In this document: positions 15,113 through 24,969 of the stretch, piece by piece
Numbering within the stretch: the stretch's first letter is position 1
Layout of the letters: each line of letters begins with the position of its first letter
DNA from: a virus
DNA: 25,131 nucleotides
IMG/VR virus record: IMGVR_UViG_3300044712_001944
Span: 1-25,131 of that record
Reading direction: 5' to 3' (one strand)
Notes under the pieces: generated by a model
What the model was told of the DNA's origin: nothing
The model's database searches: none
What the model saw: only the letters and a program-made list of their open reading frames with translations
Program-made: the position numbers and the translations under genes

Positions 15113-15213
15113 CTTAACATTACCTTTATAATATAAACCCCAAAGAATAAACCAATTAAAAACATTATTATTTTAAACCAATCATTAATCTTTTTCTTTG
15201 TTTCTGGTTTCAT
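15109..15213 (-). CDS. 34-aa single-helix membrane peptide
   Basis: A short gene read by hand: MKPETKKKINDWF, then one hydrophobic helix (IIMFLIGLFFGVYII) and KVMLR. Both ends overlap neighbours as ATGA, with the zinc-finger gene upstream and the DUF192 gene downstream. This strongly supports it as a real coupled gene despite its size. Basic residues on the N-terminal side suggest that end stays in the cytoplasm. Function unknown. Confidence 0.68.
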   Translation of the reverse strand: MKPETKKKINDWFKIIMFLIGLFFGVYIIKVMLR

Positions 15214-15545: not shown

Positions 15546-15661
15546 ATTATTTCTTCTCCACATAAAGGACACTTAACTTTCTTTCTTCTTACCATTTGTT
15601 TATCTCTCTTAGTAAGTAAGTCGATTATCTTTGCTTTGCAGTGGGGGCATTGCATTATCAT
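15542..15661 (-). CDS. 39-aa two-knuckle zinc ribbon
   Basis: A very short gene read by hand. The protein begins MIMQCPHCKAK and has a second knuckle CPLCGEEII at its end, giving a classic CPxC-x(n)-CPxC zinc ribbon. It is joined to both neighbours by four-base ATGA overlaps. Such minimal ribbons act as DNA, RNA or protein adaptors. The length is complete for a free-standing ribbon. Confidence 0.72.
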   Translation of the reverse strand: MIMQCPHCKAKIIDLLTKRDKQMVRRKKVKCPLCGEEII

Positions 15662-15864
15662 GTAGTTACCAATAATTTCTTTTGACATTGCCTCTCCTTA
15701 TAATCTTTAACCCATTGATTGTGCATAATTTTAATATACTTCTTTGAACAATTCTTTGAACAAGTAACTGAATTGCTTTTTCTTCTGCAAGAATTAACTC
15801 CTCCAGAGTTTGGTCTATCATAGGTTTCAAATTCTCTATTACAGACTATGCAGTGTTTTATCAT
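15658..15864 (-). CDS. Small treble-clef-like zinc-finger protein
   Basis: A 68-aa protein starting at 15864 (MIKHCIVCNREF). An in-frame alternative start nine codons upstream would reach into the structured non-coding stretch and is not preferred. Cys residues are arranged as CxxC, then after a Gly/Arg/Asn-rich loop SVTCSKNCSKKY, the layout seen in many phage and archaeal treble-clef fingers, often at the N-terminus of HNH-type nucleases or alone. It is basic and likely binds DNA or RNA. Its stop overlaps the 39-aa ribbon gene as ATGA. Confidence 0.7.
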   Translation of the reverse strand: MIKHCIVCNREFETYDRPNSGGVNSCRRKSNSVTCSKNCSKKYIKIMHNQWVKDYKERQCQKKLLVTT

Positions 15865-15872
15865 ATTATAAT

Positions 15873-16136
15873 CTCCCACCAGCAATTGCAAGGCTTAGGG
15901 AACTGATGGGAGTATTATCTCTGCACAAGAACAGATGGTATCCAGAGAGAAAAACTTGTGCAGAGTATAAATCCCTTGTTCCATTGTTCAATTCAAAAGG
16001 CGAACGGCAGGATGAAAAAGAGGTGTCTAGAGAAGAAAAAGCACCTTTGTTGATTTTTGTTGTAGAAGTCAAGCCGTTCATAGAAGGGAGTTTGTGATCA
16101 ACATCTCCTTCCCACTCCAAACTTGGAACAAGGGAT
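15873..16136. ncRNA. Candidate multi-helix structured RNA (or structured DNA element)
   Basis: The 300 bases between 15865 and 16164 hold no convincing gene but are full of perfect inverted repeats: 15873-15878 with 15907-15912; 15919-15929 with 15955-15965 (11 bp); 15971-15983 with 16124-16136 (13 bp). Inside the last lie 16002-16008 with 16073-16079, 16021-16026 with 16041-16046, and 16083-16090 with 16105-16111. The hexamer GTTGAT (16049-16054) can pair with ATCAAC (16097-16102) in the last hairpin loop, giving a pseudoknot. Nested helices with a tertiary contact suggest a folded RNA. A replication origin is the alternative. The transcribed strand is not determined, and the minus strand fits the operon. 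No match to tRNA, RNase P, SRP or group I/II cores was seen. Confidence 0.6.
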
Positions 16137-16164
16137 ACATGACAGACTTTAGTTTGTGTGAATT

Positions 16165-17466
16165 TCATTCTACTTTTCCTCTTTGTTGAAACATCTTTAT
16201 TTTCTCTTGGGCTTTCTTATAATTAACTTTAACTAATCTTCCTCTTGCTACTTTCTTCTTTTCAATTAAAAGGTTTAATCTTTTCAAAGCTCTCCCTACC
16301 CACTTTTCATTTATCCAATCTTCTCCACTTCCCATAAACTCTTTAAACTTATTAGTTAGTTCACTAATAAAAACAAAGCCATCTCTTTCTACTTCTTGAC
16401 TTAAGAAATCATAAAGGGAAACATCTGAGTTATCTGATATTGCCTCTTCTTTCTTTATTTCTATAATTGATTTGAAGTCTTCTATTATCTGCTCAAACAA
16501 TTCATCTGAAATATTATAAGCAACTAGAAATAAAGGGAAGCTTAACTCTAAGAATCTACCAGTTATCCCACTACTAAATACTTTATTAAAAAATACTTCT
16601 TTTGTATCTTTAGTGGTGTTAGTGCCGTTAGTGTTATATATGATGTTAGTGTTGTTAATGACGTTTAATAGCACATAGTCGTTCCATTCTGTATAGATGT
16701 TTTTAATAGAAACGTCACGGCACAAACGGCACTGAACCAGTTTTTCCTTTATAATTTTAAATTTTTGGAATGACGTTTCTTTTTCCCACATTTCAATTAA
16801 GCTAGTTTTTTTAGGATTATCTGACCTTTCTAGGATTATTTGGATACATCTATCTCCCAAAACATCTTCCATTCCAGAGATGTTAGCAATTTGGATTGGT
16901 CTATAAACATCAAACTCTTCTACTACCATCTTCTCTCCAGTAAAGTCTTTCTTCTTAGCCATCCTTTTAACTTTAGTTCCTTTCTTGTAAGCGGAGTTAA
17001 GTAACTCCCTTAAACTTTCAATTCCTTTTCTAGTTATTCCTTCAAACTCATCTATACCTAATCCTCCTTTGGTTCTAAACAATACTGCTTCAGTTAAACT
17101 ATTAAGTAAGCTACCATCAATAAAGCTATTAATCATTTTCATTAGTCTTGTCTTTCCGCTTCCCTTCATAGCATTAAAGAATAGGTAGGGGTAAGATTCA
17201 AAGTCTTCATGTAAGATTGCTCCAATAATCCAAACAGCTACAATCCTTTTACTTTCATCTGGCATCTCCATATACTTATCTAAGAACTGATTAATTATAA
17301 TATATAGCTCTTCTGGAGAGTTATCTCTTTCCCATTCAGAACAATAGTTATTTAATCCAACACTAAACTTTTCAAAGTTAGTACTCTTTAAAGAACACTT
17401 CCCTTCTTCATAGTATCTACAATTCTTGCAAATCATTAAAGAAGTTAGATCACCTACTTCTTCCAT
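16165..17466 (-). CDS. Zinc-finger AAA+/D5-like replication helicase
   Basis: A 433-aa protein. Residues 13-42 hold four Cys (CKNC, C23, C42), probably a metal site. A P-loop ATPase domain follows: Walker A in NAMKGSGKTR (K105), Walker B in GLGIDEFEG (D139, E140), a sensor-like IANISG near 193-198, and an arginine-finger candidate in GDRCIQ (R206). This order resembles DUF3631/D5-like helicases found in plasmid and virus replication proteins. The C-terminal ~80 residues look like a winged helix. No primase domain is attached. It is the best candidate for a replication protein and presumably unwinds DNA at the origin. It starts two bases after the Sm-like gene stop. Confidence 0.78.
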   Translation of the reverse strand: MEEVGDLTSLMICKNCRYYEEGKCSLKSTNFEKFSVGLNNYCSEWERDNSPEELYIIINQFLDKYMEMPDESKRIVAVWIIGAILHEDFESYPYLFFNAMKGSGKTRLMKMINSFIDGSLLNSLTEAVLFRTKGGLGIDEFEGITRKGIESLRELLNSAYKKGTKVKRMAKKKDFTGEKMVVEEFDVYRPIQIANISGMEDVLGDRCIQIILERSDNPKKTSLIEMWEKETSFQKFKIIKEKLVQCRLCRDVSIKNIYTEWNDYVLLNVINNTNIIYNTNGTNTTKDTKEVFFNKVFSSGITGRFLELSFPLFLVAYNISDELFEQIIEDFKSIIEIKKEEAISDNSDVSLYDFLSQEVERDGFVFISELTNKFKEFMGSGEDWINEKWVGRALKRLNLLIEKKKVARGRLVKVNYKKAQEKIKMFQQRGKVE

Positions 17467-17467
17467 T

Positions 17468-17674
17468 TTAAAGTTCTTCCTCCATTACCTCAATCTCCCC
17501 AGATGCGAATGTAACAAGTTGGTTAGTTCCTTTCTTTATTAATCCGATCCATACTAAACCATTACCAACATCTTCTACTGATTCAACTAAACCAGCGTAT
17601 GTTCTTTTATTCTTTAGAATTACAAATACTTTCTTTTTAACATACCTAGAAAAATACATACATTCATTTGTCAT
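17468..17674 (-). CDS. Sm-like (LSm) small protein
   Basis: A 68-aa protein. The ATG at 17674 is preferred to a TTG two codons upstream. The pattern KKVFVILKNKRTYAGLVESV followed by a turn, two strands and VTFASGEIEVMEEE resembles the five-stranded Sm fold: Sm1-like LK-N-R-x-Y-x-G and an Sm2-like segment with GEI. Archaeal Sm proteins are usually 70-80 aa rings that bind U-rich RNA. It leads the leftward block and directly precedes the helicase. An RNA-binding partner for the structured RNA downstream is an attractive but untested idea. Another small SH3-like barrel is the alternative. Confidence 0.55.
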   Translation of the reverse strand: MTNECMYFSRYVKKKVFVILKNKRTYAGLVESVEDVGNGLVWIGLIKKGTNQLVTFASGEIEVMEEEL

Positions 17675-17741
17675 ACCCAACTTAGAAATAATTAATATTT
17701 AAACATTAGTAACTACAAACAAGTTAAAACAAAGTTTAACA
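17675..17741. promoter_or_regulatory. Divergent promoter region
   Basis: This 67-bp gap separates the leftward and rightward gene blocks. The AT-rich ATATTTAAAC (17695-17704) can act as a TATA box on the plus strand, about 38-47 bases before the ATG at 17742. On the minus strand the overlapping GTTTAAATATTAATT lies some 20-30 bases before the ATG at 17674, which would give a nearly leaderless transcript. A regulator bound here, such as the adjacent AbrB-like protein, could control both directions. Confidence 0.5.
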
Positions 17742-18945: not shown

Positions 18946-19289
18946 CAGAACAACAAAAAACTTGGTTAGAACAAGAAGCATCAGGACTAACACAAAAAGG
19001 CGACTATGAAGACTTACCCGCTTTGAAACTAACTGAAAATGTAATTGCTGAATTTGATATAGATTTTAGCAATGAATTTACTAAGTGGAGTGGAAAAGAT
19101 AGTAAAGGTAATCCAGTTACCAAAAGTATTATTCCAGTAACTGTTAATGGAACTAAGATGGTATGGTGGCTCAATGTAAAGAATCCAACATATAGAGAAG
19201 TTATCACAGCTGGAATATCTGGGCAAAAGCATTTTAAGGTGTTACAAACTGGAAAGCAAGATAATACAAAATATGTATTAGTAAAGTAA
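18942..19289 (+). CDS. Possible OB-fold single-stranded DNA-binding protein
   Basis: A 115-aa soluble protein with an acidic N-terminus (residues 1-25) and a beta-rich body whose strand order (ENVIAEFDIDF, VTKSIIPVTVNG, KMVWWLNVK, HFKVLQTGKQDNTKYVLVK) and exposed Trp/Phe/Tyr resemble small OB-fold SSBs encoded by archaeal plasmids and viruses. No zinc site is present. A strong SD (AAGGAGG) precedes it. Its place between regulators and replication-type genes agrees with an SSB role, but the family call is from pattern only. A generic beta-barrel protein is the alternative. Confidence 0.6.
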   Translation: MTEQQKTWLEQEASGLTQKGDYEDLPALKLTENVIAEFDIDFSNEFTKWSGKDSKGNPVTKSIIPVTVNGTKMVWWLNVKNPTYREVITAGISGQKHFKVLQTGKQDNTKYVLVK

Positions 19290-19300
19290 AAACAATTTCC

Positions 19301-19448
19301 CATTAGCTCCATTTATTTTTAGGAGCTTTCATACTCCAGAGATTAGCTAAAGGAGTTCTGGAGAGGCGACCAATAAGCCTTTGAACACTCCTTTAGCATT
19401 AAACTCACTAGGGTACTCATCCCTCGCCTTTCGCAAGAAGGGCGAATC
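19301..19448 (+). ncRNA. Structured leader/intergenic RNA, copy 1 of a repeated hairpin element
   Basis: The 165-base gap between genes holds several helices. AGCTCC (19305-19310) pairs with 19322-19327 around a T-rich loop. GCTAAAGGAGT (19346-19356) pairs perfectly with 19387-19397 (11 bp), with the motif GGAGAGGCGACC (19360-19371) in the loop. CTCCAGA (19334-19340) can also pair with 19357-19363, crossing the 11-bp stem as an H-type pseudoknot. AGGG/CCCT (near 19410-19424) and TCGCC/GGCGA (near 19424-19445) form further hairpins just before the next start codon. The 12-base loop motif recurs at 24623-24634. It may be a cis-regulatory RNA, processed 3' end or packaging signal. The T-rich stretch at 19311-19320 could also terminate transcription. 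Confidence 0.6.
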
Positions 19449-19454
19449 ATAATC

Positions 19455-19742
19455 ATGCCAAAGAACATAAAAGAAATAAGATTGTGGAATGATAATCCAC
19501 AAAAAGATAGAATATCAAATGTAGTCAGAATAGAATTTAACTTCCCCTGTACTTGGACTATCTTAGACATTGAAGATTTAAAGAAGATAATTAGATTATG
19601 GATAGAAGGAGAAGAACTTAAGTATCCAAGAGATAAAGACATCGGTCTCCATGTTGGAGAGTTAAGAGGTAGAGGTATGTTGTTTGAAGAAATAAAGAAG
19701 TTGTTTGAATTAAACTTGCCGAAAAAGGAGAAAGGAGAATGA
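19455..19742 (+). CDS. Uncharacterised 95-aa soluble protein
   Basis: A charged alpha/beta protein with no membrane segment. Residues ~20-35 look like a strand pair (NVVRIEFNFPCTWTILD), followed by a helix (EDLKKIIRLWIEG) and a C-terminal helical region ending KKEKGE. It has no clear Shine-Dalgarno site. Instead a stable hairpin (19424-19445) ends about ten bases before the ATG, so its translation may depend on the upstream RNA structure. It is coupled by four bases to the next gene. Family unknown. Confidence 0.65.
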   Translation: MPKNIKEIRLWNDNPQKDRISNVVRIEFNFPCTWTILDIEDLKKIIRLWIEGEELKYPRDKDIGLHVGELRGRGMLFEEIKKLFELNLPKKEKGE

Positions 19743-23977: not shown

Positions 23978-24255
23978 TAATCTACATTGAGTTCTTAATC
24001 TTAGGGTTAGTTTTCTTTATTTTTTTAGGTTGGTCTATTTGGTACAACTTATCTACAACTAAATTAAGGAGGAAGTATGATGAACAAAGAAGAAGAGAAT
24101 CAAAAGGAACAGGAGAACTTGGCACTTCAGAGGGAAGTGTTAGTTCTAAGAGACCTTTTTTCTTTAAAGGACGAGAGCTATTACCGCCAACAGATTCTAT
24201 TTCAACTGGAGAGAATAGCAACAGCACTAGAAAGTTCTTTAAAAAAAGAGGTTAA
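23974..24255 (+). CDS. Possible membrane protein overlapping another frame
   Basis: A 93-aa reading starting with a good hydrophobic helix (residues 2-24), coupled by ATGA to the gene before. After about residue 35 the sequence becomes Ser/Gly/Pro-rich and looks non-native, exactly where a second frame (24077-24259) encodes a well-formed coiled coil with a strong SD. Either the helix-coding first third is real and the tail is a by-product of overlap, or the two frames are joined by frameshifting. The N-terminal helix part is the more credible portion. Confidence 0.45.
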   Translation: MIIYIEFLILGLVFFIFLGWSIWYNLSTTKLRRKYDEQRRRESKGTGELGTSEGSVSSKRPFFFKGRELLPPTDSISTGENSNSTRKFFKKRG

Positions 24256-24259: not shown

Positions 24260-24526
24260 ATGAATAAGTCATTTATTAACATATTAATTATTGGAGGTTT
24301 TATTTTAATCCTCCTTTCTCCATTATTACTACTTCCTGATATATTTGAAGCAAGACAATTCTGTATTTCAAACAACTTAACATATAGCCTAAATTTGCGA
24401 TTAGAGAGCTTTTGTGATGATTTAAAGATAAATAAGTATTATTCTAACATAGAACAAAGAACTTATTGGGAATATGAGCAAAACTTCCCTTATAAAATAA
24501 AGTTAAATTTTTCTGAATTTTCCTAA
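24260..24526 (+). CDS. Small exported protein with membrane anchor
   Basis: An 88-aa protein. An N-terminal hydrophobic segment (about residues 8-27) is followed by an outer domain with two Cys (FCIS, FCDD), which may form a disulfide, and two sequons. It ends the rightward block, starting directly after the preceding stop. Downstream lies the structured intergenic element where the two strands converge. Family unknown. Confidence 0.63.
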   Translation: MNKSFINILIIGGFILILLSPLLLLPDIFEARQFCISNNLTYSLNLRLESFCDDLKINKYYSNIEQRTYWEYEQNFPYKIKLNFSEFS

Positions 24527-24657: not shown

Positions 24658-24969
24658 TTAAAGAGTTGATTGTCCCATTCTCATTCTTTGCCATACTCCT
24701 ACAAGTAAAGCTAGAACTCCAATGATTAATACAACTGCAGCAACTAAAAGAACTGTTGGGATCTTACCAGATACATTATCAATACCTGATGTGAAGTTTC
24801 CTACTAATCTATCTGTTGCATTATCTGAAGCAGAATCAGCAGTCAATAAACTTGCACTTGTTAAGGTATTAACAATTACAAAGGCAATAATAACTCCTAT
24901 AATCAAAGAAGCTACTCCGAAAACTAAACCTGTGATAAGTCCACCAGTTTGCCCTTTTTTATTTAACAT
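24658..24969 (-). CDS. Two-helix membrane protein, candidate major coat protein
   Basis: A 103-aa protein. The N-terminus MLNKKGQTGG precedes a long Gly/Val/Ile helix (about 9-36). An exposed loop with three sequons (NAT, NFT, NVS; about 37-68) follows, then a second helix (about 69-93) and a basic end (WQRMRMGQ). Two hydrophobic helices in about 100 residues is the layout of spindle-shaped virus major coat proteins (VP1-like), and the KKG-Q start also resembles archaeal prepilin signals. It alone has its own promoter, separated from the long leftward block, and a near-perfect SD (AAGGAGGTT), which implies high expression. A pilin-like or generic membrane protein is the alternative. Confidence 0.72.
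   Translation of the reverse strand: MLNKKGQTGGLITGLVFGVASLIIGVIIAFVIVNTLTSASLLTADSASDNATDRLVGNFTSGIDNVSGKIPTVLLVAAVVLIIGVLALLVGVWQRMRMGQSTL

Follow-up and report, generated by a model that had tools for sequence, protein, structure and literature searches.

The window, that is, the whole stretch of 25,131 bases analysed here, is the IMG/VR record IMGVR_UViG_3300044712_001944, which ends in a 127-base direct repeat and is therefore probably a complete circular genome of ~25.0 kb. Minus-strand genes occupy it up to position 17680, and plus-strand genes follow from 17742. The element under study lies in the minus-strand operon, with a gene for a P-loop ATPase/helicase-like protein upstream (16165-17466, minus) and a gene for a Cys-rich, zinc-finger-like protein downstream (15658-15864, minus; a relative is present in virus G001, tblastn E 1.5e-6). 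The order of a helicase and a zinc-finger gene around the element, as given in an earlier note on this DNA, thus stands, while both names are to be taken as "-like"; for the helicase this is because the protein had no Pfam match above the cut-off. The operon had also been described as otherwise gapless, and gaps of ~85-100 nt occur as well at 15113-15209 and 15573-15657. Additionally, the operon of the element encodes a protein (17468-17680, minus) that is predicted with high confidence (pLDDT 90.9) to adopt an Sm/Hfq-type fold. Its Foldseek matches included Hfq, LSm, and Gemin6, no match having an E-value under 0.001, and its match to LSM (E 0.0015) was under Pfam's cut-off. Adjacency, predicted fold, and the U-rich segment of the element together suggest that this protein may bind RNA.

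Single-protein searches with the helicase and with the ATPase returned no relatives; these were reached via a search with a coat-like protein, followed by helicase alignments. Relatives of the P-loop ATPase/helicase-like protein, at 40-49% identity, were located in three Candidatus Pacearchaeota MAG contigs, and the helicase alignments placed further ones in IMG/VR contigs. Because helicase relatives sit in Pacearchaeota MAG contigs, the host is probably a Pacearchaeota-like DPANN archaeon. The coat-like protein itself (24658-24969, minus) had 70-82% identity to its counterparts in L009/L010, against 30-50% for most proteins, and several partial copies of it were present in G002.

The observation of a folded element was largely right. 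Both perfect inverted repeats that had been claimed are present: one of 13 bp (15971-15983/16124-16136), which closes a long-range-helix domain with 140 nt inside (15971-16136), and one of 11 bp that forms a hairpin (15919-15965; arms 15919-15929/15955-15965). Among 300 dinucleotide shuffles of the element, the 13-bp inverted repeat arose in none and the 11-bp in four, and 13 bp was the longest perfect inverted repeat across all 300-nt windows of the genome. The nesting of helices within the 13-bp helix was likewise borne out in that the minimum-energy fold of the plus strand has a 7-bp helix, GAACGGC/GCCGUUC (16002-16008/16073-16079), enclosing two hairpins, as well as a third hairpin. Comparison with shuffled sequence, which had been proposed earlier, found the element more stable than all of 100 shuffles on each strand (z = -3.83 for plus and -3.91 for minus; 0/100 as stable), and its G+C content is indeed higher than that of its flanks (38-40% versus ~30%). 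In contrast, the pseudoknot found no support, as the unpaired stretches of the minimum-energy structure hold no 6-nt Watson-Crick complementarity on either strand; it could form through some other structure. The statement that the element matches no RNA class held: no Rfam 15 family scored at its gathering threshold anywhere in the window, relaxed thresholds gave nothing credible for the element, and ARAGORN detected no tRNA or tmRNA in the window. The best sub-threshold match (15865-15992, plus; 24.7 bits, E 0.0042) was to PK-repZ (RF01087), an RNA known from a different biological setting, and was taken as a chance match given the gathering score of 44. A DNA search with the element gave no match in phages or in three related records. 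The element is not the strongest fold of the genome, since 19280-19480 folds at z = -5.06. That folded stretch (19290-19454, plus) lies between two genes and has no Rfam match, and the end of the gene before it resembles, by eye, the gene just before the small RNA copy described below for contig L018.

Related viruses provided a comparison. G001 (IMGVR_UViG_3300018080_000090) has the helicase, an element, and the Cys-rich gene in the same order as the window. Its element contains a long-range helix of 9 bp, CUCUGGAAC/GUUCCAGAG, that encloses 132 nt (versus 13 bp and 140 nt in the window), and the helix sequences of the two viruses are unrelated. A third element, in L012, combines a 9-bp helix around ~117 nt with a 14-bp hairpin. 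Differing helices at one position would look like compensatory change in a qualitative sense, with G001 as the one clear ortholog. In five further helicase relatives (L014, L015, L017-L019) no such element was found right after the helicase. Several local features were seen in contigs L012, L013, and L008. Specifically, the 11-mer TCCACTTCGTA (region CCACTTCGT) occurs twice in the L012 element, at L012:6371 and L012:6515, each time in the loop of a different hairpin; L013:6820-6995, after an HNH-like ORF, has a strong, strand-specific fold (z -3.49 sense, +0.13 antisense) with the shape of a three-way junction; and L008:7081-7260 (G001), before the Cys-rich gene, is rich in repeats, with direct and inverted copies of the TTATCATTATC type, and may be an origin or operator.

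Like the pseudoknot, the description of the element as non-coding was not supported, and it is unsafe: the minus (mRNA) strand is free of stops all the way between the helicase stop and the point where the next gene starts. This 100-codon frame (15866-16168, minus) has an ATG that overlaps the helicase stop and ends as TAAtATG at the start of the Cys-rich gene, and it was kept open in 0.55% of shuffles. The corresponding frames in G001, L012, and L013 comprise 58, 84, and 54 codons and were open in 1.25%, 0.25%, and 10% of shuffles, respectively; those of L012 and L013 likewise end at the start of the next gene. The codon score of the 100-codon frame was -0.175, where the wrong-frame mean was -0.20 and other genes ranged from 0.001 to 0.34. 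We read the frame as a structured segment that would be traversed by ribosomes.

The connection of the element to a cellular RNA came from its sequence. The clearest sequence common to the window and G001 elements is CACCUCUUUUU, and CACCTCTTTTTY matches once per genome in both viruses, at the elements. A search of the Pacearchaeota MAGs with CACCTCTTTTTY exposed a conserved small RNA (sRNA) gene of ~50-75 nt, composed of an archaeal promoter, a 5′ tail, AUCACCUCUUUUUCC, a covarying hairpin, and GGGUUU. The promoter is usual, with the consensus CCGAAAGATTTAAATACT ~29 nt upstream of the tail. The tail begins with 8 nt identical to the anti-Shine-Dalgarno end of 16S rRNA (GGATCACCTCCT in host contig G045). 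The exact 15-mer tail was present in 77 of the 132 genomes of the order, against 2 of 132 for a reversed control. A covariance model, R1, matched 249 of 279 genomes of the Nanoarchaeota phylum at E <= 0.01, which is an upper figure because tail-only matches reach ~1e-3; roughly 205 were below 1e-6. The gene, which this model describes, was seen in L035, L036, L032, L037, L039-L066, and L228-L234. Seven R1 matches from other genomes of the phylum retained the tail and a stable hairpin, mostly with a UUCG loop. Within the R1 hairpin, both partners change in seven of the nine modelled pairs, and cells of this kind number 39, versus 9.1 in shuffles, a count made on an alignment fitted to the R1 model, which favours covariation. 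No Rfam family matched the sRNA, and no description of it was found in a literature search covering mainly freely available papers. With or without a link to the viral element, this sRNA makes a strong candidate for a new family of RNAs.

Full copies of this sRNA also occur near the same helicase gene. One lies at L024:980-1043 (E 1.2e-10), on the upstream side of the helicase and ~335 nt from it, the two being separated by a small ORF that has a weak LSM-like match, and another at L018:3713-3788 (E 3.1e-9), on a MAG contig, ~0.5 kb downstream of the helicase. Among the IMG/VR matches listed, good R1 scores were found at L108:6717-6765, L103:4985-5037, L124:564-614, and L126:10819-10893, and in L074 and L117; the underlying scan for the exact 15-mer yields many chance matches, so that the contigs inspected, those with strong R1 scores among the matches listed, imply no frequency. 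The sRNA-bearing IMG/VR contigs appear virus-like and are candidate viruses. The sRNA of the host phylum, unlisted so far, and its presence in virus-like contigs form the firmer result of this analysis.

CACCUCUUUUU, common to the elements of the window and G001, falls within the 5′ tail of the sRNA. The shared core, CACCTCTTTTT, is on the minus (mRNA) strand at 16015-16025 and is also in the G001 element. It belongs to CACCUCUUUUUC (16014-16025, minus), a match to 12 contiguous nt of the 15-nt tail, and G001 matches 13 nt on the same strand. Shuffling gave a tail match of at least 12 nt in 85 of 100,000 sequences for the window element (8.5e-4) and of at least 13 nt in 2 of 100,000 for G001 (2e-5), figures that understate chance because the motif is pyrimidine-rich and the sRNA itself was found by searching with it. 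Across 14 sources, 13-mers within one mismatch numbered 8; permuted 13-mers averaged 2.3, and one of them gave as many as 7. The elements of L012 and L013 are without the tail (longest match 7 nt). In the predicted ensemble, the CACCU part of the 12-nt match is paired and the U-run unpaired. Like the R1 sRNA, then, the element has most of the tail (12 nt of 15, and 13 in G001), and full R1 copies lie near the helicase gene in L024 and L018; unlike it, the element is ~300 nt long versus 50-75, lies within an open frame, and has neither the sRNA hairpin nor its own promoter. The window scored 9.4 bits on R1 (E 1.5), the CC..GG hairpin that follows the tail was absent from the element and the isolated segment does not form a hairpin, and the best minus-strand promoter scored <=2.2 against a host-gene mean of 20.3. 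Membership of the element in the sRNA family was rejected, as it is without the hairpin and the promoter. At most it would work like the sRNA. A link between the two is nonetheless likely.

The reading that we lean towards, tentatively and short of conviction, sees the element as a regulatory segment, structured and crossed by ribosomes, within the minus-strand mRNA of the replication operon, where it would present a copy of the anti-Shine-Dalgarno (anti-SD) tail of the host sRNA. Carried in a larger domain that a long-range helix closes, the minus-strand tail would pair with Shine-Dalgarno-type (SD) sites (GAGGUG) or, alternatively, would compete with the host sRNA for its partners; the viral Sm-fold protein may hold the tail, and pairing or competition would tilt translation. 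The stop-free frame would let ribosomes pass and keep the operon coupled, and their passage would open the hairpin over the ribosome site of the Cys-rich gene. Against this reading, the predicted fold has CACCU paired, leaving mainly the U-run exposed. The choice of the minus strand is weakly favoured because full helicase-side copies of the sRNA read in the direction of the helicase and the operon should be transcribed from that strand; neither strand of the element has a convincing promoter. Among the classes suggested earlier, a regulatory RNA bound by the Sm-like protein fares best, in that the predicted Sm/Hfq-fold neighbour and the U-rich, anti-SD-like core lend some support to the regulatory part, while the binding is a prediction. 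For a packaging RNA, a ribozyme or intron, or a structured origin, no positive evidence was found.

The same features could be explained without the host sRNA. A leader with a hidden ribosome site that brings about translational coupling is a known kind of system, and by sequence and prediction both of its parts, the leader frame and the hidden site, are present here: the element frame ends one base ahead of the next start, and the ribosome site of the Cys-rich gene, GGUGGGAG, is covered by an 11-bp hairpin of -16.6 kcal/mol (15873-15912, minus). In the predicted ensemble the SD of this gene is ~0 unpaired and its region has a mean of 0.04, the least accessible of the 19 starts compared; the hairpin has a single wobble pair, a U-G on the minus strand whose plus-strand counterpart is a C-A mismatch. 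Purely cis-acting coupling would thus have ribosomes on the bridging frame melt the SD hairpin, so that the Cys-rich protein is made only while the operon is translated, and the likeness to the sRNA tail would be an accident. This account is possible, if on the unlikely side, given that the SD in L012 is not hidden (~0.97 unpaired) and that it leaves the 13-bp domain and the shared core unexplained. The element also differs from such leaders in its extra long-range helices and its core resembling the host sRNA, and the coupling itself is predicted. That the frame is instead a fast-evolving gene for a small protein of 100 aa, with the inverted repeats incidental or secondary, would suit frames that are open far beyond chance (0.0055 in the window, 0.0125 in G001, and 0.0025 in L012) and junctions typical of operon genes. 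We consider it improbable, since the codon score resembles that of a wrong frame, the product has no Pfam or PHROGs match, the products of the relatives are not visibly alike, and the 13-bp repeat is not expected by chance.

Alternatively, the active molecule might be an antisense RNA from the plus strand whose GAAAAAGAGGUG, a perfect complement to 12-13 nt of the sRNA tail, would sequester the host sRNA by base pairing. In both viruses the fold of the core is slightly more stable on the plus strand (z -4.46 versus -3.41 in the window and -3.08 versus -2.43 in G001), and two inner hairpins use G-U pairs there. However, the GAGGUG in question is paired in the predicted fold, the plus strand is without a convincing promoter, and the complete viral copies of the sRNA close to the helicase share its orientation, all of which make such a sponge quite doubtful. 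Perfect inverted repeats stable on both strands, along with the repeats abundant in the G001 region adjoining its element, would suit a DNA-level site beside a replication gene, for example a replication origin or recombination site, yet no shared iterons were seen, L014, L015, and L017-L019 have no such element right after the helicase, and an open frame is not something that an origin needs; this possibility is very remote.

The favoured reading, a regulatory mRNA segment presenting the tail copy, has a parallel in bacterial sRNAs with anti-SD (C-rich) segments, which act with Hfq. The element is alike in its anti-SD-like, U-rich segment and in the Sm/Hfq-fold protein encoded nearby, and unlike in that it is embedded in an operon of an archaeal virus and that its targets and binding are putative. 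It suggests that the virus may interfere with translation control of the host. SD-like sites (>=5 nt) were counted ahead of 32% of the genes in the window, of 12-26% in seven further virus records, and of 8% in one host genome, a single genome not known to be that of the actual host; SD-led mRNAs thus seem common in these viruses and scarce in that genome. Pairing targets of the tail at gene starts in one host genome were within the range of shuffled tails. As a long shot, a near-universal host anti-SD sRNA could repress SD-led mRNAs, and viruses could carry the sRNA or mimics of its tail together with an Sm-fold protein, in an arms race over translation that is run by RNA.

A viral element of no known class would in this way be linked to a conserved RNA of an archaeal phylum that is missing from Rfam. 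If the link holds, it offers a testable handle on translation control in the DPANN archaea, which are mostly uncultivated, and in their viruses; without it, the element still shows how RNA structure can be superimposed on an open frame within a viral operon. Elsewhere in the window, AAAAAGAGGT (24243-24252, plus), in the ribosome site of the gene at 24260-24526, is complementary to 10 nt of the sRNA tail and is a possible viral target.
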